The position numbers and the translations under genes are program-made. The notes below the pieces were generated by a model. That model was given only the letters and a program-made list of their open reading frames with translations. It was not told the DNA's origin and ran no database searches. Of a stretch of 64,000 nucleotides of DNA, positions 17,153 through 58,744 are shown piece after piece. This stretch comes from a bacterium (GTDB lineage: Bacteria; Armatimonadota; UBA5829), in contig JAJFVF010000019.1 in NCBI GenBank assembly GCA_021371935.1, positions 151,268 through 215,267 of the forward strand, read 5' to 3'. Each line of letters starts with the position of its first letter. The first letter of the stretch is position 1.

Positions 17153-17971
17153 ATGTCAACAACAAGCGCAGTATCGAGTACGAGTTCGGCGACTACATCG
17201 TCGAGCACAACAACAAGCAGCAGCACGACGCTGGATCAGAATGCGTTTTTGAAGCTGTTGATAACAGAGATGCAGAATCAGGATCCGTTGAGTCCGATGG
17301 ACAATACGGAATATGTTGCCCAGCTTGCACAGTTCTCATCGCTAGAGCAAATGCAGCAGATGAATTCTACACTGGATACAATAAGTTCATCTACTCAGGC
17401 ATTAAGTCTTGTCGGCAAGACTGTGGATTACACATCACCGTATGATTCGTCTGTCACATTGAGCGGGACCGTCAGTGGCGTTGTTTACGATGACGGGATT
17501 GCCAAGGTGAAGATTGGTGATGACACTGTTTCACTGGATGCGATTGAGCAAATCTACACCGAGGCATCATCAGATACGGGGCAAAAGTCCCAATATGCAC
17601 TTGGGCTTATCGGTCAGACAGTTGACTATTATACTTCGTCTGGCGAATTTGCTACGGGGACAGTAGATAGTGTGTCATATGATGATGGTTGGCCGACACT
17701 CAATATTGGGTCGGATTCAGTATCGGTAAGTAATGTTGTCAGTGTGCACGAATCTAGTGATGATATTGATTCAGACGAGGCATATGAAATTGCGTCTGCT
17801 ATGATTGGAAAGACGGTCACATATACCAATCCATCGGATACAAGCAGTACACTTACTGGAGTTCCAACAAGCGTAACAACTGACAGTGACGGCAACGTTA
17901 AGTTAGTAATTGGCACAAGTAAGATTGATCTTTCCGATGTTGTCAATGTATGTGCATCCGACAACTCATAA
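17153..17971 (+). CDS. flgD: Flagellar hook cap protein FlgD with three tandem C-terminal repeats
   Basis: A 272-residue FlgD. The signature LDQNAFLKLLITEMQNQDPL, then DNTEYVAQLAQFSSLEQMQQ, covers residues 27-70. The N-terminal 25 residues are nearly all Ser and Thr. The C-terminus has three copies of a roughly 50-residue unit at about 84-137, 150-199 and 215-267. Each starts (I/V)G(K/Q)TV-(D/T)Y and contains a V-YDDG-type turn and an -IG(S/D)D-V- strand. Most FlgD proteins have one such small beta domain. FlgD caps the growing hook and is shed later. Confidence 0.92.
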   Translation: MSTTSAVSSTSSATTSSSTTTSSSTTLDQNAFLKLLITEMQNQDPLSPMDNTEYVAQLAQFSSLEQMQQMNSTLDTISSSTQALSLVGKTVDYTSPYDSSVTLSGTVSGVVYDDGIAKVKIGDDTVSLDAIEQIYTEASSDTGQKSQYALGLIGQTVDYYTSSGEFATGTVDSVSYDDGWPTLNIGSDSVSVSNVVSVHESSDDIDSDEAYEIASAMIGKTVTYTNPSDTSSTLTGVPTSVTTDSDGNVKLVIGTSKIDLSDVVNVCASDNS

Positions 17972-26493: not shown

Positions 26494-28599
26494 ATGGCTG
26501 TAGCAGTTCCACAACAACAGGATAAGTCTGCATCACCACTTGGTGCGCTGACACGTCACAGCGATGTCGCAATCGCGGCTGTGGCAGTTATGATCGTCGG
26601 AATGATGATCCTGCCGCTGCCGCACTGGCTCTTGGACCTGCTGCTTTGTGCAAACATTGCACTTGCACTGTCTATACTGCTGGTCTCGATGTATACCTCC
26701 GAGCCGCTTCAGTTCAGCTCATTTCCATCACTGCTTCTGATGACGACCCTATTCAGATTGTCGCTGAATGTATCTGCAACCAAACTGATTCTTTTGCATG
26801 CCGATGCCGGGGCTGTCATATCGGCATTTGGTTCAGTCGTGGTCGGAGGCAATTATGTAGTCGGTATAGTCGTTTTCATAATTCTGGTCATAATCCAGTT
26901 CGTGGTCATTACAAACGGTGCAGGCCGCGTAGCTGAAGTTGCAGCCAGGTTTACGTTGGATGCTATGCCAGGCAAACAGATGGCCATTGATGCAGACCTT
27001 AACGCCGGTATAATTGATGAGAAAGAGGCACAACAGCGGCGCAAAAATGTTGGACGTGAAGCCGACTTCTATGGGGCCATGGATGGTGCCACCAAGTTCG
27101 TGCGCGGTGACGCAATCGCAGCCATCATCATGATTATTGTCAACATACTGGGTGGGTTTGTCGTTGGTATAGCTCAGCGTGGGATGGACATCATGCAGGC
27201 TCTGCAGACTTATACGCTACTTACTATTGGTGAGGGTCTGGTAACTCAAATTCCTGCGCTGCTTATCTCTACTGCAACAGGCTTGATGGTGACCAAGAAC
27301 GGCTCTGAAAAGAGCTTGGGCTTTGAACTTATGAGCCAGATTTTTTCCAGACCGAAGGCTATTGCGATCACTGCATGCGTTTTTGGCGTGCTTGTTGTTG
27401 TGCCGGGAATGCCAAAAATCCCACTGCTGTTTGCTGCCGCACTTGTCGGATTGGTAGCATATTTCCTGTCTCAAAATGATAAGAAGTCTGCTGCCGAAGC
27501 CGCTAAAGCCAAGGCTTTGAAAGCTGCGACTCCTGCACCTACCACACCAGAGTCTATGACTGATCTGATAGGTGTCGATCCTCTGGCACTGGAGGTCGGT
27601 TATGGATTGATACCGCTTGCCGATCCCAAGCAGGGTGGTGAACTGCTGGATCGCATCACGATGATTCGTAAACAGTCGGTCATTGATATGGGCGTTTTGG
27701 TTCCGGCCATACGGGTGCGCGATAATGTCCAACTTGGTGCCAATGAATATGTGTTGAAATTACGCGGCACTGAAATCGCACGTGGAGAGGTATTCCTCAA
27801 TCAATATCTTGCAATGAACCCCGGTGGAGCCACTGAAAAGCTCAACGGGATTGAGACAGTGGAGCCGGCATTCAGTCTTCCGGCTACCTGGATATCGGAA
27901 TCGCAGAAGATGTTTGCTGAGGTGGCGGGATATACTGTTGTCGACCCGACGACTGTGTTGGTCACTCATCTTACGGAACTTGTCCGCAAACACGCGGCTC
28001 AACTGCTTACCAGGCAGGAGACTCAGCAGCTTCTTGATGCTGCTAAGGAAGAAGCACCGACTGTGGTCAGCGAGCTTATTCCCGATGTTATGGGCATCGG
28101 TGACATTCAAAAAGTATTGCAGAACCTGCTTGCCGAGAGAGTGTCGATACGTGATATTGTCGCTGTGCTCGAAGCTCTGGCTGATTTTGCAGGGGCTACT
28201 AAAGATACGGATATTCTGACGGAATACACACGCCAGCGTCTTGCGCTTGCAATATGCAGGCAGCATCAGGGTCCTGACGGCAAGATCACCGTATTCGGGC
28301 TGCACCCGAGTGTGGAGCAGATAATCACTGACAATATTCGCCAGACAGAACTTGGAGCGCGGTTGATTCTCGATCCGGGGCTGGTACAGGAATTGCTATC
28401 AGCAATACGTGTTCAGGTAGAGAACCTGACTGAGCGGGGATTTGCTCCCATAGTGCTGTGCTCACCAAGGACAAGGATGCACGTGCATGGACTGGTCGAG
28501 CAGTCATTCTCCAATCTTACGGTTCTCTCATACGCGGAAATTGCGCCTGAGATCAATGTTGACTCTATAGGAATGGTGAAGCTTAAAAATGCGAATTAA
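26494..28599 (+). CDS. flhA: Flagellar export protein FlhA
   Basis: A 701-residue FlhA (FHIPEP family), forming the nonameric export ring. Eight membrane helices cover about 20-330. The FHIPEP-domain loop AGRVAEVAARFTLDAMPGKQ is followed by DADLNAGIIDEKEAQQRRKN and FYGAMDGATKFVRGDAIA. The cytoplasmic C-terminus (about 370-701) contains VDPLALEVGYGLIPLADPKQ and ends in SYAEIAPEINVDSIGMVKL. It binds chaperone-substrate complexes. flhF overlaps its last 11 bases. Confidence 0.98.
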   Translation: MAVAVPQQQDKSASPLGALTRHSDVAIAAVAVMIVGMMILPLPHWLLDLLLCANIALALSILLVSMYTSEPLQFSSFPSLLLMTTLFRLSLNVSATKLILLHADAGAVISAFGSVVVGGNYVVGIVVFIILVIIQFVVITNGAGRVAEVAARFTLDAMPGKQMAIDADLNAGIIDEKEAQQRRKNVGREADFYGAMDGATKFVRGDAIAAIIMIIVNILGGFVVGIAQRGMDIMQALQTYTLLTIGEGLVTQIPALLISTATGLMVTKNGSEKSLGFELMSQIFSRPKAIAITACVFGVLVVVPGMPKIPLLFAAALVGLVAYFLSQNDKKSAAEAAKAKALKAATPAPTTPESMTDLIGVDPLALEVGYGLIPLADPKQGGELLDRITMIRKQSVIDMGVLVPAIRVRDNVQLGANEYVLKLRGTEIARGEVFLNQYLAMNPGGATEKLNGIETVEPAFSLPATWISESQKMFAEVAGYTVVDPTTVLVTHLTELVRKHAAQLLTRQETQQLLDAAKEEAPTVVSELIPDVMGIGDIQKVLQNLLAERVSIRDIVAVLEALADFAGATKDTDILTEYTRQRLALAICRQHQGPDGKITVFGLHPSVEQIITDNIRQTELGARLILDPGLVQELLSAIRVQVENLTERGFAPIVLCSPRTRMHVHGLVEQSFSNLTVLSYAEIAPEINVDSIGMVKLKNAN

Positions 28600-30607: not shown

Positions 30608-30850
30608 ATGATCCAGTCCGTGTGGAAATTGATAAGTCTGCTGATAGGGCTGGTTGTTTTTCTGAGTGTCGGCATGGTGTTATGGATGGCCGGTGAGGAC
30701 TTGCTATGGATAGTGATGAAGTCCATAGGTGCATTCTTTGTCTGCTGGATAATTTTGGGCCAGTTGGGCGGCATGCTGGTGGCTGTGTTAAAAAACTCTG
30801 CTCAGGAAGAGAAGAGCGAGTCAAAAGAAGTAATCAGAGAGGTTGATTGA
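30608..30850 (+). CDS. Small two-helix membrane protein in the flagellar operon
   Basis: An 80-residue protein with two hydrophobic segments (ISLLIGLVVFLSVGMVLWMA and IGAFFVCWIILGQLGGMLVA) and a charged C-terminal tail rich in Glu, Lys and Asp. I do not recognise a family. It sits between flhG and the sigma factor, one base after the flhG stop, and its stop overlaps the start region of the sigma gene. A role in motility is inferred only from that position. Confidence 0.6.
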   Translation: MIQSVWKLISLLIGLVVFLSVGMVLWMAGEDLLWIVMKSIGAFFVCWIILGQLGGMLVAVLKNSAQEEKSESKEVIREVD

Positions 30851-30852
30851 CC

Positions 30853-31611
30853 ATGGTTCAACGAGAGAGACTGTGGCGCGAGTACAAACAAAATGGAAGT
30901 GAGCAGGCAAGGGACGGCCTCATCACCGAGTATGCCTACCTGGCGAAATATGCAGTCGACCGTCTCAATCTGTCTCCCTCAGGCGCGCTCAGCTATGAAG
31001 ACCTGATCGGTCATGCAGTGGTTGGGCTCATAGATGCCATAGAAAAGTTTGACCCGGACCGGAATGTCAAATTTGAGACCTATGCGCTGACCCGGATTAG
31101 GGGTGAAGTGATTGATGTTATCAGGAGTCTGGATTGGACCCCCCGGTCCGTGCGCAAGAACGAGACGATACTGCGTGACGCATATGCACGTCTCGAAATG
31201 CAGTTACAGCGTCCACCAACCGATACTGAAGTCGCTCAGCATCTCGAGATTGAAGTTGTCGAGCTTGAGAAGATGCTTGCTGATGTCGGGCAATCCGCTC
31301 TGCTTTCGCTCGATGAGATGATTGCCAGCGGCGGCGACATCCTTGCCCGAGGCGATGACGAATATGACGACCCGGCATCATGTGCTGAGCGTGCTGAGCA
31401 AAAAAGGTTACTCATCAGGTCGGTCGATGAGCTTCCAGAACGTGAAAAGCAGGTTGTCGCTCTCTATTACTACAAAAATTTGACCCAAAAAGAAATTGCG
31501 GCAGTCCTTGGAGTTACCGAATCGCGCGTATGTCAGATACATACCAAAGCTGTTCTCAGGCTCTCTGGTAAGCTCTCAAGAACATCAGCATGCTTTGCAA
31601 TGGCAGCTTAG
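30853..31611 (+). CDS. fliA: Sigma-28-type RNA polymerase sigma factor (FliA/WhiG)
   Basis: A 252-residue sigma factor of the FliA/SigD/WhiG group. Region 2 contains SYEDLIGHAVVGLIDAIEKF, then DPDRNVKFETYALTRIRGEV and DVIRSLDWTPRSVR. Region 3 lies near RPPTDTEVAQHLEIEV. Region 4 contains DELPEREKQVVALYYYKNLT and the helix-turn-helix TQKEIAAVLGVTESRVCQIH. It would direct late flagellar and chemotaxis genes. The ATG at 30853 is used. It closes the operon. No FlgM anti-sigma gene is seen in the window. Confidence 0.94.
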   Translation: MVQRERLWREYKQNGSEQARDGLITEYAYLAKYAVDRLNLSPSGALSYEDLIGHAVVGLIDAIEKFDPDRNVKFETYALTRIRGEVIDVIRSLDWTPRSVRKNETILRDAYARLEMQLQRPPTDTEVAQHLEIEVVELEKMLADVGQSALLSLDEMIASGGDILARGDDEYDDPASCAERAEQKRLLIRSVDELPEREKQVVALYYYKNLTQKEIAAVLGVTESRVCQIHTKAVLRLSGKLSRTSACFAMAA

Positions 31612-43694: not shown

Positions 43695-44885
43695 TTAGTC
43701 GCAGGGCTGGCTATAAAACTTAGCTATTGCGGCGTCTCTTACCAGTTTGACCGGTACGCCATGCTTGGCTGCTGCCGCTTTGCAGTCTTCGTATTCGGGC
43801 TGACTGTTTATGATTTCGCCGTTCTTGTGCGCGACTTTGATCGTGATCTGTCCGTACTTTGTGTCAACAGTGACGGTTATGCGTGGAAGGCACATACGTG
43901 ATTGCCTGTCTATCCTGATGCCGATTGTGGATGTTTCTTCAAAGATGATATTACCCATAGCAGAAATCTTCTCAGGGTCACAGATGACAGACAAGAGAGT
44001 CGCCGGGCGGTTCTTCTTCATCTGGATGGGCGTTAGGTAGACATCCAGCGCTCCCGCTGCAAAAAGCCTTTCCATGACAACTTCATAGACCTGCGGCTCC
44101 ATGTCGTCTATATTCGATTCGAGTATGGCGACCTCCGGGTGTTTGCAGCACTTATGCCCGGGTTCTTCCTGTTCTCCGATCATCACTCTCAGAACATTTG
44201 GGATTCCGAAGTCCTTTTTGCCGGATCCATAGCCGGTGGACTGCAATGTCATTGCGGGCATAGGACCAAATCCTTCCGCAAGTTCGGCCAATATGGCGGC
44301 GCCGGTCGGTGTCACGATTTCTCCTTCGATCCCAAGCTCACGCCAGGGAACGTCTTTCAGAATTTCTGCAGTAGCGGGGGCGGGCAGAGGAAATGTGCCA
44401 TGGGCGATCTTTACCATGCCATGAAAAGTCGGGATTGGGCCGGCAAAAACCTTGTCTATTTCGAGCAGAGCCAGGCATATGCATGTGCCGACTATGTCTA
44501 TAATCGAGTCTATCGCACCGACTTCATGAAAATGAATTTCTTCGATGCTTTTGCCATGAATTTTCGCCTCAGCCTCACCCAGCCTTTTGAAGATTGCGAT
44601 TGATTTGGCTTTGACGCTGTCGCTCAGGCTGCTCTGTTCTATATGCTGTTTGATATCTGTGAAACTGCGGCCATGATGGCCATGATCGTGATGGACTCGG
44701 ACTTCTATATCTGTTGCAGAAATGCCACTGCGCACAACTTTGCTTAATATTAGCTCATAATCTTTAATATCAAGTTTTGCCAGTTCGAGCTTGAGCTTCT
44801 CAAAGTCAGCGCCCGCATCCACCAGCGCCCCAAGAGTCATATCGCCGCTGATGCCGGCAAAACAGTCAAAATATGCTGTGCGCAT
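43695..44885 (-). CDS. larC: LarC, nickel-insertion enzyme of the nickel-pincer cofactor
   Basis: A 396-residue LarC that inserts nickel into the pincer cofactor used by lactate racemase-type enzymes. It opens RTAYFDCFAGISGDMTLGAL. A His-rich loop (VHHDHGHHGRSF) is a likely nickel store. The motifs IHFHEVGAIDSIIDIVG and PVGVTISPSIP-equivalents (VTPTGAAILAELAEGF) fit the family. It is one uninterrupted frame, unlike the Lactiplantibacillus gene, which needs a ribosomal frameshift. Third gene of the larE-larB-larC operon. No larA lies in the window. Confidence 0.93.
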   Translation of the reverse strand: MRTAYFDCFAGISGDMTLGALVDAGADFEKLKLELAKLDIKDYELILSKVVRSGISATDIEVRVHHDHGHHGRSFTDIKQHIEQSSLSDSVKAKSIAIFKRLGEAEAKIHGKSIEEIHFHEVGAIDSIIDIVGTCICLALLEIDKVFAGPIPTFHGMVKIAHGTFPLPAPATAEILKDVPWRELGIEGEIVTPTGAAILAELAEGFGPMPAMTLQSTGYGSGKKDFGIPNVLRVMIGEQEEPGHKCCKHPEVAILESNIDDMEPQVYEVVMERLFAAGALDVYLTPIQMKKNRPATLLSVICDPEKISAMGNIIFEETSTIGIRIDRQSRMCLPRITVTVDTKYGQITIKVAHKNGEIINSQPEYEDCKAAAAKHGVPVKLVRDAAIAKFYSQPCD

Positions 44886-44903
44886 TCTTACGTGCTTCTC
44901 CTC

Positions 44904-45668
44904 TTATTGCCCTTTGTTGATCATGTGTGCCAGATATCCTGCGCCGAAGCCGTTGTCTATATTCACCACGCTTACTCCGACCGCGCAGGAGTTGAGCATG
45001 GAAAGCAGAGCAGCCAGACCGCCGAAGCTGGCGCCGTAACCTATGCTTGTCGGCACTGCTATGACCGGTCTGCTGACCATTCCACCGACAACGCTTGCCA
45101 GAGCGCCTTCCATCCCGGCCACTGCTATTATCACATTTGCGCCGAGCAGTGTCTCTTTCTGATCGAGCAGTCTGTGCAGACCTGCTACACCCACATCATA
45201 TGACTTCTCCACACGGCTGCCGAGCACCCTTGCGGTGACTGCCGCCTCTTCTGCCACGGGTATGTCCGCGGTCCCGCCGCAGACGACCATTACATATTTA
45301 TCATCCTGCGCAAGCTCCTTATCAGACCGAACCGGCTTACCGACTGTGATAATCCTTGCCGGTTTGTTATAGGCTGCATTTGGAATATGGTTCTTGACTG
45401 CATCATATACTTCAGTGCTTGCACGTGTGCCCAATATGCACTTGTTGCCCTTGCACAGATGTTTCATTATCTCTATCACCTGCTCGTTCGTCTTACCCTG
45501 GCAGTAAACAACCTCTGGAAACCCACTGCGCAGGCTGCGGTGGTTGTCGAGTTTGGCAAATCCTATGTCTTCGTACGGCAGTGAGCGCAGACGCTGCATC
45601 GCTGCGCCTACTTCCAGGCGTCCATCCTTCACCATCTCCAGCAGTTGTTCGAGAAGTTCTGTATTCAT
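44904..45668 (-). CDS. larB: LarB, pyridinium biscarboxylic acid synthase (nickel-pincer cofactor)
   Basis: A 254-residue AIR-carboxylase-related protein. It carboxylates and hydrolyses nicotinic acid adenine dinucleotide to begin the pincer cofactor. The N-terminal part is LLEQLLEMVKDGRLEVGAAM, then RSGFPEVVYCQGKTNEQVIE. The PurE-like core includes VCGGTADIPVAEEAAVTARV and ANVIIAVAGMEGALASVVGG. The ATG lies on the base after the larE stop. larC follows 18 bases downstream. Confidence 0.93.
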   Translation of the reverse strand: MNTELLEQLLEMVKDGRLEVGAAMQRLRSLPYEDIGFAKLDNHRSLRSGFPEVVYCQGKTNEQVIEIMKHLCKGNKCILGTRASTEVYDAVKNHIPNAAYNKPARIITVGKPVRSDKELAQDDKYVMVVCGGTADIPVAEEAAVTARVLGSRVEKSYDVGVAGLHRLLDQKETLLGANVIIAVAGMEGALASVVGGMVSRPVIAVPTSIGYGASFGGLAALLSMLNSCAVGVSVVNIDNGFGAGYLAHMINKGQ

Positions 45669-46469
45669 CTAGAAACCGATTACCTCGTTCATGCTCCCCG
45701 TATGATAACCCACAAGATCGAGTGCGACATATTTATATCCCAGGCTTTTGAACTCGCGCACCACACATTCTCGAACATGGTGGCCTATCATCTTCTCCAT
45801 CTCGAGCGGCATCAGCTCTATGCGCGCCGTGTCGCCGTGGTCTCGGACACGAAACTGGCCGAACCCGAGTTCATTCAAAATGTCTTCCGCGTGCTCTATG
45901 CGTGCCAGGAGTTCAGTCGTCAGACGCGAACCATAGGGAACGCGGGACGCAAGACATGCGTAGGACGGCTTGTTCCAGGTGCTTAGCCCTATATCACGCG
46001 ATATTGCACGGATGTGTTCCTTCGTAATACCCAGTTCCTTAAATGGACTGCGCACACCAAGCTCGCAGTTGGCTTTCGATCCGGGTCTGAAGTCGGATTC
46101 GTCGTCAATGTTCGAGCCGTCGAGCACATATTTGATACCCTGTTCGTTTGCCATCTCGGTCAATCTGGAAAAGAGAGCTTTTTTGCAGTGATAACAACGC
46201 TCGGGTGTGTTTTCCGGCACTTTGTCCAGCGACAATATATCCACACCCAGCCTGACCAGGTTGAAACCATACATGTCAGCCAGACTGATTGCATCATCTA
46301 TTTCGGACGATGGGACAAGGCATGATTCGATCAGCACACAGATTGCTTTATCACCGAGCGCATCGGTTGCTGCCTTTGCGAGCAGAGTGCTGTCTACTCC
46401 ACCTGAGTATCCTATAAGCACACTCCCCATATCTGTAAGGAGGTTTTTGAGTCTTTCATAATCTGCCAC
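45669..46469 (-). CDS. larE: LarE, sulfur transferase of the nickel-pincer cofactor
   Basis: A 266-residue PP-loop protein. The nucleotide-binding loop is IGYSGGVDSTLLAKAATDAL. Other landmarks are CYHCKKALFSRLTEMANEQG and DGSNIDDESDFRPG, then WNKPSYACLASRVPYGSRLT. LarE gives sulfur from its own cysteine (or recycled persulfide) to the cofactor. The GTG start at 46469 is chosen because a promoter lies directly upstream and would begin the mRNA within one or two bases of it; longer starts lie upstream of the promoter. It starts the operon. Confidence 0.9.
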   Translation of the reverse strand: MADYERLKNLLTDMGSVLIGYSGGVDSTLLAKAATDALGDKAICVLIESCLVPSSEIDDAISLADMYGFNLVRLGVDILSLDKVPENTPERCYHCKKALFSRLTEMANEQGIKYVLDGSNIDDESDFRPGSKANCELGVRSPFKELGITKEHIRAISRDIGLSTWNKPSYACLASRVPYGSRLTTELLARIEHAEDILNELGFGQFRVRDHGDTARIELMPLEMEKMIGHHVRECVVREFKSLGYKYVALDLVGYHTGSMNEVIGF

Positions 46470-46800
46470 AGGTTTAACTATAGCGGAAGTGGCCGTGAGT
46501 GTCAAAAAGACAGAATGGTTTTTTGACAAGAACAATTTTTGCTGCATATATCAGACAGAACGGTATACTATGACACCAGGTTTATGGGGTAACTCCATGG
46601 GTAAAACAAACTCGTTAAGATATGACAATAAGCTTTTTAAGTAAATCAGGACGTCGAACTTGTAATAACGAGACATTTTGCTGATCGTTTTTTCAATGGC
46701 GTATTGGCTTATTCCCCATATTTGGAGTACACTATATAGTGACTAATCACTTCGATGATATGTCGGTGAGTGATATAGAATTTTGCAGTGAGGTTTTAGT
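46470..46800. other. 331-base gap between larE and the methyltransferase-like gene
   Basis: Holds the lar promoter, a 12-base palindrome (CACTATATAGTG, 46730-46741) that could be a -10/operator for the rightward gene, and AT-rich spacer. I see no gene in it. Confidence 0.5.
46477..46505 (-). promoter_or_regulatory. Near-consensus sigma-70 promoter for the lar operon, leaderless
   Basis: On the minus strand TTGACA (46500-46505), a 17-base spacer, and TATAGT (46477-46482). Transcription would begin near 46470, one base before the GTG of larE, so the mRNA is likely leaderless. Confidence 0.65.
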
Positions 46801-55773: not shown

Positions 55774-55800
55774 TTAAGTTTTGTTGGCGCTTGTCGATAA
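55774..55800 (+). promoter_or_regulatory. Sigma-28 (FliA-type) promoter
   Basis: TTAAGTTT (55774-55781), 11-base spacer, GTCGATAA (55793-55800). It matches TAAAGTTT-N11-GCCGATAA at 14 of 16 positions with the right spacing. It lies 50 bases before the Ser-rich gene, whose expression would then depend on the sigma factor at 30.85 kb. Confidence 0.65.
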
Positions 55801-55849
55801 GTGATTTGAGAGTAGGCCAAAATCAAATACATTGAAAGGAATGAAATCG

Positions 55850-56374
55850 ATGAGTATTACAGGAATCGACAGCAGCTCAGACTCAATTTATGAGCTGTAT
55901 AAGCTCTATTCCACACAGGCAGTAAGCTCGACATCCACGGATGACAGCGACAGCTCATCTACCGGCATCAGCGCTATAGGCAGCAGCGTTGACTCTGTGG
56001 ATTTTTCACAGACGGGAGAGCTTTTCAGTCAGCTTCAGCAGTTGCAGGAGTCGGACCCCGATAAGTTTAAGGAAGTCTGCTCCAGTATCGCGGATAAGTT
56101 GACTGAAGCCTCACAGAACGATGACGGCAGCACGGACAGCATGCTCTCTGATCTGGCGAGCAAGTTTGAAGAGGCTTCCGAAACCGGAGACTTGTCTTCA
56201 CTGCAGCCTCCACCACCACCTCCGCCCGCTCAATTCACAGGCTCGATGCAGGATGTCAGCGATCTTTATTCGCAGAATGAATCCACAACCACGACTCAAT
56301 CGAGCAAGGCGAGCACTATCAATGATATAATCGCCAGTGCCCTGAGCGAGGCAGGAATATCGGTTTCGGAGTAA
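55850..56374 (+). CDS. Ser/Thr-rich protein, likely sigma-28-dependent
   Basis: A 174-residue acidic protein with long Ser/Thr/Asp runs, a polyproline tract (about residues 124-131) and no signal peptide or membrane helix. The composition and lack of signal resemble flagellar-exported proteins. Helical segment LFSQLQQLQESDPDKFKEVC is the most structured part. I do not recognise a family. The start at 55850 follows AAAGGA by nine bases. A sigma-28-type promoter ahead suggests a late flagellar or motility role; that is inference. Confidence 0.6.
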   Translation: MSITGIDSSSDSIYELYKLYSTQAVSSTSTDDSDSSSTGISAIGSSVDSVDFSQTGELFSQLQQLQESDPDKFKEVCSSIADKLTEASQNDDGSTDSMLSDLASKFEEASETGDLSSLQPPPPPPPAQFTGSMQDVSDLYSQNESTTTTQSSKASTINDIIASALSEAGISVSE

Positions 56375-56425
56375 GCTTGCAAACACGTCTGAGTCCGGAG
56401 GACGGGACAGAACCGATATATCTGC

Positions 56426-56461
56426 CGGGTTCGTAGTCGATAAGGCCGACTACGGAACCCG
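56426..56461 (+). repeat. Hairpin of the GTAGTCG-CGACTAC type
   Basis: Stem 56426-56439 pairs with 56447-56461 with one bulged G (CGGGTTC-GTAGTCG with CGACTAC-GAACCCG). It may end transcription of the Ser-rich gene. Its core AAGGCCGACT is shared with the element near 59360. Confidence 0.55.
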
Positions 56462-56562
56462 ACAGAAAGGTGAATTATATTTCATCAATTTCCCTCCCGC
56501 AGTTATGTTACGAGCCGATTCTGAAAAAGTTATGAAAAGCAGCCGCTGTTTGAATTTTAGTT

Positions 56563-57329: not shown

Positions 57330-58744
57330 AGTTTAGCTCGGTAAGATTCAGGCTTACATTGTGGAATATCGGAGTGCTGGCGCTGGTATTGTTCGGGTTT
57401 CTTGCAGTGATGCACTTTTCGGTGCGCTCCTATCTGCTGTCCGAGACTGATCACAGGCTTTCCGGTATGGCGAAGCGGCACCTTGACATAATTAACAAAA
57501 AGGCGCCGAGTAACTTGCCGCCGCCACCAAAAGATGATTCAGCTTCTGAAAAAAAACACTTCCGGCCAATGGTCCATCAGTTTGACCTTAAGGGCAAACA
57601 GGTGTTTGTTGCCGGTGAAAAGCAGGAGATAAAAGAGCCGCCTTGGGATGAAAAAGCATTCAAAAAAGCCATGGCGGGTGAGCGAGTCTTCACGACAATT
57701 GCGGCTGATGACACGATATTACGTGTAATCTCTCTTCCTATAAGAAAAAAGGGAACCATCACGGGTGTCATCCAGGTCGCAGTATCTTTTGCAGAGGTCC
57801 AGGTCATGCTCGAAAGCCTGACTATGACTCTGACGGTCCTTGTGCCGATTGCGCTGCTGGTCGCGGGAATAGGAGGACTTTTCCTGACCAGTCGTGCCCT
57901 AAAACCTATAAGGCAGATGGTCGATACAGCCGAAGCAATCAGCGACAGTGATCTGTCACAGCGGCTGCCTGTGATCGGCGCGGATGAGTTTGCTCACCTG
58001 GCCGCCACGATAAATGGCATGCTCGCCAGGCTCGACAAGGCATTCAAACAACTAAAGGATGCTTTCGATCGGGAGAGACGCTTCACCTCCGATGCATCTC
58101 ACGAGCTCCGCACGCCACTGACCGCTATAAAAGCAAATACTTCACTGGCGCTGCTTGCCGACAGGACGCCGGAGCAGTATCGTGAGACTATCAGTAAGAT
58201 AGATCAGTCTGCGGATGCTATGAGTAGTCTGGTTCAGGATCTTCTGCTGCTGGCTCGCTCGGATGCCGGACAGTTGGCTCGTGAATTTCAACCTGTCGAC
58301 CCTCATGATCTCTTCGATAATGTTCTGGCCGTTGTCCGTCGAACTGAAAATGATGCGAAGGTGACGGTGGATGTGGCGGATTCGACCGGCCTGATACTCG
58401 GCGATATGGAGCACCTCAACCGTCTGGTTATCAATCTGCTTGAAAATGCTCTGCGCCATACTCCGTCCGATGGTGAAGTAACCCTGAGTGCACAAAGGCG
58501 GGATGGTATGGTGGAGTTGGCCGTGGCGGACACCGGGTGCGGGATTGCGCCTGAGCATCTATCGCATCTGGGCGAGAGGTTTTATCGTGTGGATGCTGCT
58601 CGCACAAAAAAGAGCGGTGGTGCAGGTTTGGGGTTGGCTATATGTCGCAGCATTGTGGAGGCTCACAACGGTTCCATGGCAATAGGCAGTTCACCTGGGC
58701 AGGGCACACGTGTTACCGTCACTCTTTCCCCAGCCAAAAAATAA
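57326..58744 (+). CDS. Sensor histidine kinase
   Basis: A 472-residue membrane kinase. Membrane helices lie near residues 11-32 and 162-184, framing a small periplasmic domain. A HAMP domain follows (LKPIRQMVDTAEAISDSDLS). The phospho-accepting His is in FTSDASHELRTPLTAIKANT. The ATPase domain has NLLENALRHTPSDGEVTL and VADTGCGIAPEHL, then GAGLGLAICRSIVEAHNG. The signal is unknown. Overlaps the regulator by four bases. Confidence 0.95.
   Translation: MKFSSVRFRLTLWNIGVLALVLFGFLAVMHFSVRSYLLSETDHRLSGMAKRHLDIINKKAPSNLPPPPKDDSASEKKHFRPMVHQFDLKGKQVFVAGEKQEIKEPPWDEKAFKKAMAGERVFTTIAADDTILRVISLPIRKKGTITGVIQVAVSFAEVQVMLESLTMTLTVLVPIALLVAGIGGLFLTSRALKPIRQMVDTAEAISDSDLSQRLPVIGADEFAHLAATINGMLARLDKAFKQLKDAFDRERRFTSDASHELRTPLTAIKANTSLALLADRTPEQYRETISKIDQSADAMSSLVQDLLLLARSDAGQLAREFQPVDPHDLFDNVLAVVRRTENDAKVTVDVADSTGLILGDMEHLNRLVINLLENALRHTPSDGEVTLSAQRRDGMVELAVADTGCGIAPEHLSHLGERFYRVDAARTKKSGGAGLGLAICRSIVEAHNGSMAIGSSPGQGTRVTVTLSPAKK

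Follow-up and report, generated by a model that had tools for sequence, protein, structure and literature searches.

A putative late flagellar-regulon gene encoding an acidic, Ser/Thr-rich protein, and its relatives in two distant groups of bacteria

The locus

The window analysed here, by which we mean the whole stretch of 64,000 nucleotides, contains on its forward strand a coding sequence (55850..56374) for an acidic, Ser/Thr-rich protein of 174 amino acids. Features written below as start..end lie on this same strand. The start is the ATG at 55850, which is common to the homologues, and the stop codon is the TAA at 56374. A ribosome-binding site, AAAGGA, is present at 55835..55840. Further upstream are the -35 element, TTAAGTTT (55774..55781), and the -10 element, GTCGATAA (55793..55800), of a FliA-type promoter. 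The full site reads TTAAGTTT-TGTTGGCGCTT-GTCGATAA, with a spacer of 11 nt, and ends 49 nt 5' of the ATG. On the other side of the gene, 3' of the stop codon, a strong RNA hairpin without a T-run is found at 56421..56466 (z -3.95), from which the gene is probably monocistronic. No Rfam match was found in the region of the gene.

The protein has a net charge of -23 and a Ser+Thr content of 32%, which rises to 44% in the first 50 residues, and its hydropathy profile lacks any hydrophobic stretch. These values bear out the initial annotation, which had called it acidic, Ser/Thr-rich and devoid of a signal peptide. Residues 1–47 (55850..55990) form a low-complexity, Ser/Thr-rich segment that is predicted to be disordered and opens with the family start MS-[IVT]-x-x-I; this segment is a candidate export signal. 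Residues 48–122 (55991..56215) form a conserved core module, predicted to fold into three helices (pLDDT of the core model 79.7) and carrying the motif DPDKFKEV..IADKL..KFxxAAxxG. A run of seven prolines lies at the end of the core (56207..56227), and the model places a C-terminal helix at residues 150–167 (56297..56350).

Three flagellar genes in the window are of particular relevance. The candidate sigma factor, FliA, is at the end of the flagellar cluster (30847..31611); with 241 bits against a TIGR02479 cut-off of 189.6 it is a genuine FliA, as the initial annotation had supposed in placing the matching sigma factor in the same window. FlhA, the export gate of the flagellar type III apparatus and the candidate exporter, is at 26494..28599. 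The hook cap FlgD, an export substrate of known type with a Ser/Thr-rich N-terminus, is at 17153..17971 and serves as a comparator. A second FliA/WhiG-type sigma factor is present in the same genome (G000:C2:385315-385986), with a TIGR02479 score slightly above that of the cluster FliA.

The FliA-type promoter

Direct reading of the sequence confirmed the 14-of-16 match to the FliA consensus, TAAAGTTT-N11-GCCGATAA, that had been claimed for the site. The window has no other match as good, and 0.29 matches with three or fewer mismatches are expected by chance in each shuffle. Genome-wide, the E. coli consensus at the same stringency gave 30 matches compared with 49 for the reversed control, which is no enrichment, and the 14/16 match taken alone is therefore weak evidence.

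The site has its first 12 bases, including the 8-mer TTAAGTTT, in common with the experimentally mapped FliA site of E. coli ycgR, which begins TTAAGTTTTGTT (PMC4183435). The sigma-28 promoters of the genus, as seen upstream of the flagellin genes and FlgF/FlgG-like rod genes in five genomes (the rod genes being named by eye), have the form TAAACCC-N12-GTCGATAC, and the window -10 element shares GTCGATA with them. The promoter matrix of the genus gives the window site a modest score, 7.45 out of 27.5 bits (p about 0.03), and finds no recognisable site for two of the eight genus-level family members.

Two further observations concern the genus-type promoter. A near-perfect match, TAAAACCT-N12-GTCGATAC, occurs at 57900-57927 inside a histidine kinase gene and is probably due to chance. 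The FlgF/FlgG-like rod genes, again named by eye (L135, L142, L143, L144 and L146), have the sigma-28-type promoter of flagellin in 5/5 genus genomes, so that in this genus the rod genes would fall under the late sigma factor.

The protein family and conservation of the promoter

Homologues of the 174-aa protein were found in 13 of 291 genomes of the window's phylum and in 20 of 199 Desulfovibrionales genomes; a wider sample of the phylum to which Desulfovibrionales belong added no member genomes to those already found. A second copy is present in the window's own genome. What they have in common is a module some 75 residues long that follows the pattern S..G..M..L..L..SDPDKFKEV...IADKL...KF..AA..GSM..L, and its core residues are nearly invariant across the two distant groups. 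Members of about 170 aa have a single module, those of about 300 aa have two in tandem, and others add a coiled-coil tail that bears a weak likeness to FlxA. Among the sigma-28-type members, L115, L116 and L117 have a long coiled-coil tail with the motif D-[ST]-V-[ST]-[IL]-S-x-x-G-K-x-L-A, and two of these three match FlxA weakly.

Searches of Pfam, NCBIfam and the PDB returned no family match for the protein, and Foldseek found nothing significant in the PDB for the whole model or for the core (best core E 0.73). Weak matches, such as those to UCH or DUF3135, were below cut-off or scattered and were rejected as its identity. No description of the family was found in the open-access literature searched. 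The term orphan, used in the initial annotation, thus holds in so far as no database family exists and fails in that the protein has a real family spanning two groups; that this family is undescribed, as was also suggested, fits its absence from Pfam, NCBIfam, the PDB and the literature found. Plasmid records searched with a Desulfovibrionales query and phage records searched with the window protein contained no homologue, giving no sign of a gene carried by mobile elements.

Sigma-28 sites were counted when at least 12 of 16 FliA-consensus bases were present in the 100 nt upstream of the start. Such a site precedes 17 of 22 single-module members in Desulfovibrionales, compared with 0/141 other ORFs of the same loci and 0.8% of shuffles. 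Within the window's own phylum, conservation is weaker: 7/16 members have a site, compared with 1/60 controls, and the remaining 9/16 fall below the threshold. The spacer is 11 in all of the Desulfovibrionales sites counted and mostly 12 in the window's phylum. In the corresponding position the closest orthologue (68% identical) retains TGTCGATA. The search for protein and promoter together that the initial annotation had advised therefore upholds its link to sigma-28 in both groups, less firmly in the protein's own phylum, and because of this conservation the window promoter is more than a chance match.

Is the promoter match nevertheless a coincidence, the protein belonging instead to the locus in which it is found? 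The gene sits between efflux and two-component genes, which encode a MacB-type ABC exporter, an HlyD-type adaptor, an OEP-type outer membrane protein, a response regulator and a kinase. Efflux genes also flank the G004 orthologue, and efflux and regulator genes are near the G003 homologue. However, the regulators and kinases beside the G003 and G002 homologues show identities of only about 30–39%, the second paralogue of the window's genome and the Desulfovibrionales members examined lie elsewhere, and the promoter is conserved independently of this gene context. On these three grounds a link to efflux or two-component signalling was rejected as the main reading, and we consider it very improbable. 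LarE/LarB/LarC-like genes are also present in the window, at 43695-46547, and in genome G084 (L027) a single 17-kb stretch holds LarB- and LarC-like genes together with MacB-type efflux genes and a member of the family.

Sigma-54-like sites and paired genes

Sigma-28 and sigma-54 are the two flagellar sigma factors. The Desulfovibrionales members that lack a sigma-28 site, which include all seven tandem forms, have GG-N10-GC sigma-54-like sites 32–95 nt upstream. These match at 7/10 or more positions in 11/11 members and at 8/10 or more in 8/11, compared with 21.6% and 5.8% of controls, respectively (n = 171); the test was devised after the sites had been seen and several of the members are near-copies. 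No sigma-54-like site of 7/10 or more was found in the Desulfovibrionales members that have a sigma-28 site (0/18). Flagellar operons of Desulfovibrio vulgaris are under sigma-54 control (PMC4641369).

Head-to-head pairs, each of a sigma-28-type single-module gene with a sigma-54-type tandem gene, occur in five genomes. Flagellin is 6–8 kb from the pair in three related genomes, in one of which FlgE lies at such a distance as well. The promoter classes cluster in a tree of the core, many forks of which are poorly resolved. This division, of single modules with sigma-28 from mostly tandem forms with sigma-54, suggests two stages of export or assembly.

Flagellated hosts and evidence bearing on export

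Flagellin is present in 13/13 sampled member genomes. FlhA was matched in all 13 member genomes of the window's phylum (weakly in G109), compared with 203/291 genomes overall. Many flagellated relatives lack a family member, so the family would be accessory to the flagellum and not a core part of it.

Several features of the protein bear on whether it leaves the cell. In the first 50 residues its Ser+Thr fraction of 0.44 is exceeded among the window ORFs only by that of FlgD (0.48); the next ORFs, FlgE among them, have 0.24 and the mean is 0.14. Low cysteine content is expected of exported flagellar proteins. Cysteine makes up 0.07% of residues in Desulfovibrionales members and 0.44% in members of the window's phylum, several of which keep one or two cysteines, compared with about 1.1% in controls (1.10% in neighbouring ORFs). 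Hydropathy gives neither a Sec signal nor a transmembrane segment, none of the family members contains a hydrophobic stretch that could span a membrane, and model confidence indicates an unstructured N-terminus. The first nine residues of the members are better conserved than the linker that follows. Composition and N-terminus thus suit a flagellar type III substrate without proving export, and the description as a late flagellar export substrate in the initial annotation appears plausible from composition.

The same data may be read in another way, in which the protein stays in the cytoplasm under sigma-28 or sigma-54 control as an export chaperone, an anti-sigma-like regulator or a modulator of the motor or chemotaxis. 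Cytoplasmic proteins do occur in late regulons, the modelled core is a small, acidic bundle of helices and cysteines are kept in several members of the window's phylum. However, the long disordered, Ser/Thr-rich N-terminus and the scarcity of cysteine are unlike the cytoplasmic proteins of the window, the opening residues are conserved and Pfam gives no match to a chaperone or to FlgM. A cytoplasmic role is rather unlikely on this balance, though it deserves to be kept in mind.

Discussion

That the protein is a member of the flagellar regulon is well supported by the sequence comparisons. Its relatives in a distant group keep the promoter, and the protein is therefore probably a component of the flagellum, or a product exported by it, that has yet to be described. 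Export through the flagellar type III apparatus would be its likeliest role, one to which we give about an even chance. The explanation as a whole, a late flagellar-regulon gene with a product that is exported and acts outside the cell, is the one we favour, with some caution.

The sequence of events might be as follows. FliA-RNA polymerase would transcribe the gene on its own from the promoter at 55774-55800, most probably once the hook is complete. The MSI..I start and the disordered, Ser/Thr-rich N-terminus probably lead the product to the flagellar type III export gate. Once outside, the three-helix core may act as a minor protein associated with the filament or hook, or in a protein that is secreted and released.

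Alternatively, the promoter may be real and the protein a dispensable, fast-evolving passenger of the regulon with no role in motility. The patchy distribution of the family is in keeping with this, and there is a precedent in E. coli FlxA, which depends on FliA yet is reported to be dispensable for motility in a study cited by PMC4183435. Against this, the core residues are nearly unchanged between two distant groups, and conserved pairs of paralogous genes, each gene with a sigma control of its own, have persisted. A passenger is therefore improbable, and membership of the regulon with a function outside the cell remains our preferred reading.

What is known of flagellar-regulon proteins outside the core machine comes mostly from a small number of well-studied bacteria. 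A family that crosses phyla and is defined by its sequence together with sigma-28 or sigma-54 promoters narrows the search for flagellar export substrates in environmental bacteria to a short list of testable candidates. The paired sigma-54 and sigma-28 paralogues also raise a question: are there two versions of the protein for two stages of building the flagellum? A tentative and speculative extension would have a hitherto unrecognised modular family exported by the flagellum in two stages in Desulfovibrionales and the window's phylum, the tandem form being made in the sigma-54 middle phase and the single-module form in the sigma-28 late phase, and the two working jointly as minor structural or secreted partners of hook and filament.

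How does the family compare with known systems? FlgM, the anti-sigma-28 factor, is likewise small, belongs to the flagellar regulon and is disordered in its front half; Pfam found no FlgM match (PF04316) in any of the 42 members. FlxA (PF14282) is controlled by FliA, as the 174-aa protein would be, and likewise has an unclear role. Neither the window protein nor its core module matches FlxA, and the window protein lacks the FlxA-like tail; the coiled-coil tails of two sigma-28-type members have weak FlxA matches (5.8e-5 and 0.004; 17.7 and 23.6 bits, cut-off 26.3). FlgD, in the same window, likewise has a Ser/Thr-rich N-terminus and no Sec signal. The FlgD domain is absent from the 174-aa protein, and the likeness is one of composition, not homology. 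Finally, the Fed proteins of Campylobacter jejuni are sigma-28-dependent and co-expressed with flagellin, and they need sigma-28 for their secretion as well (PMC5223770). The Feds are linked to colonisation of a host, whereas no such link was seen for the present family, which occurs in the window's phylum and in Desulfovibrionales. It is in regulation that the Feds may be likened to the 174-aa protein.
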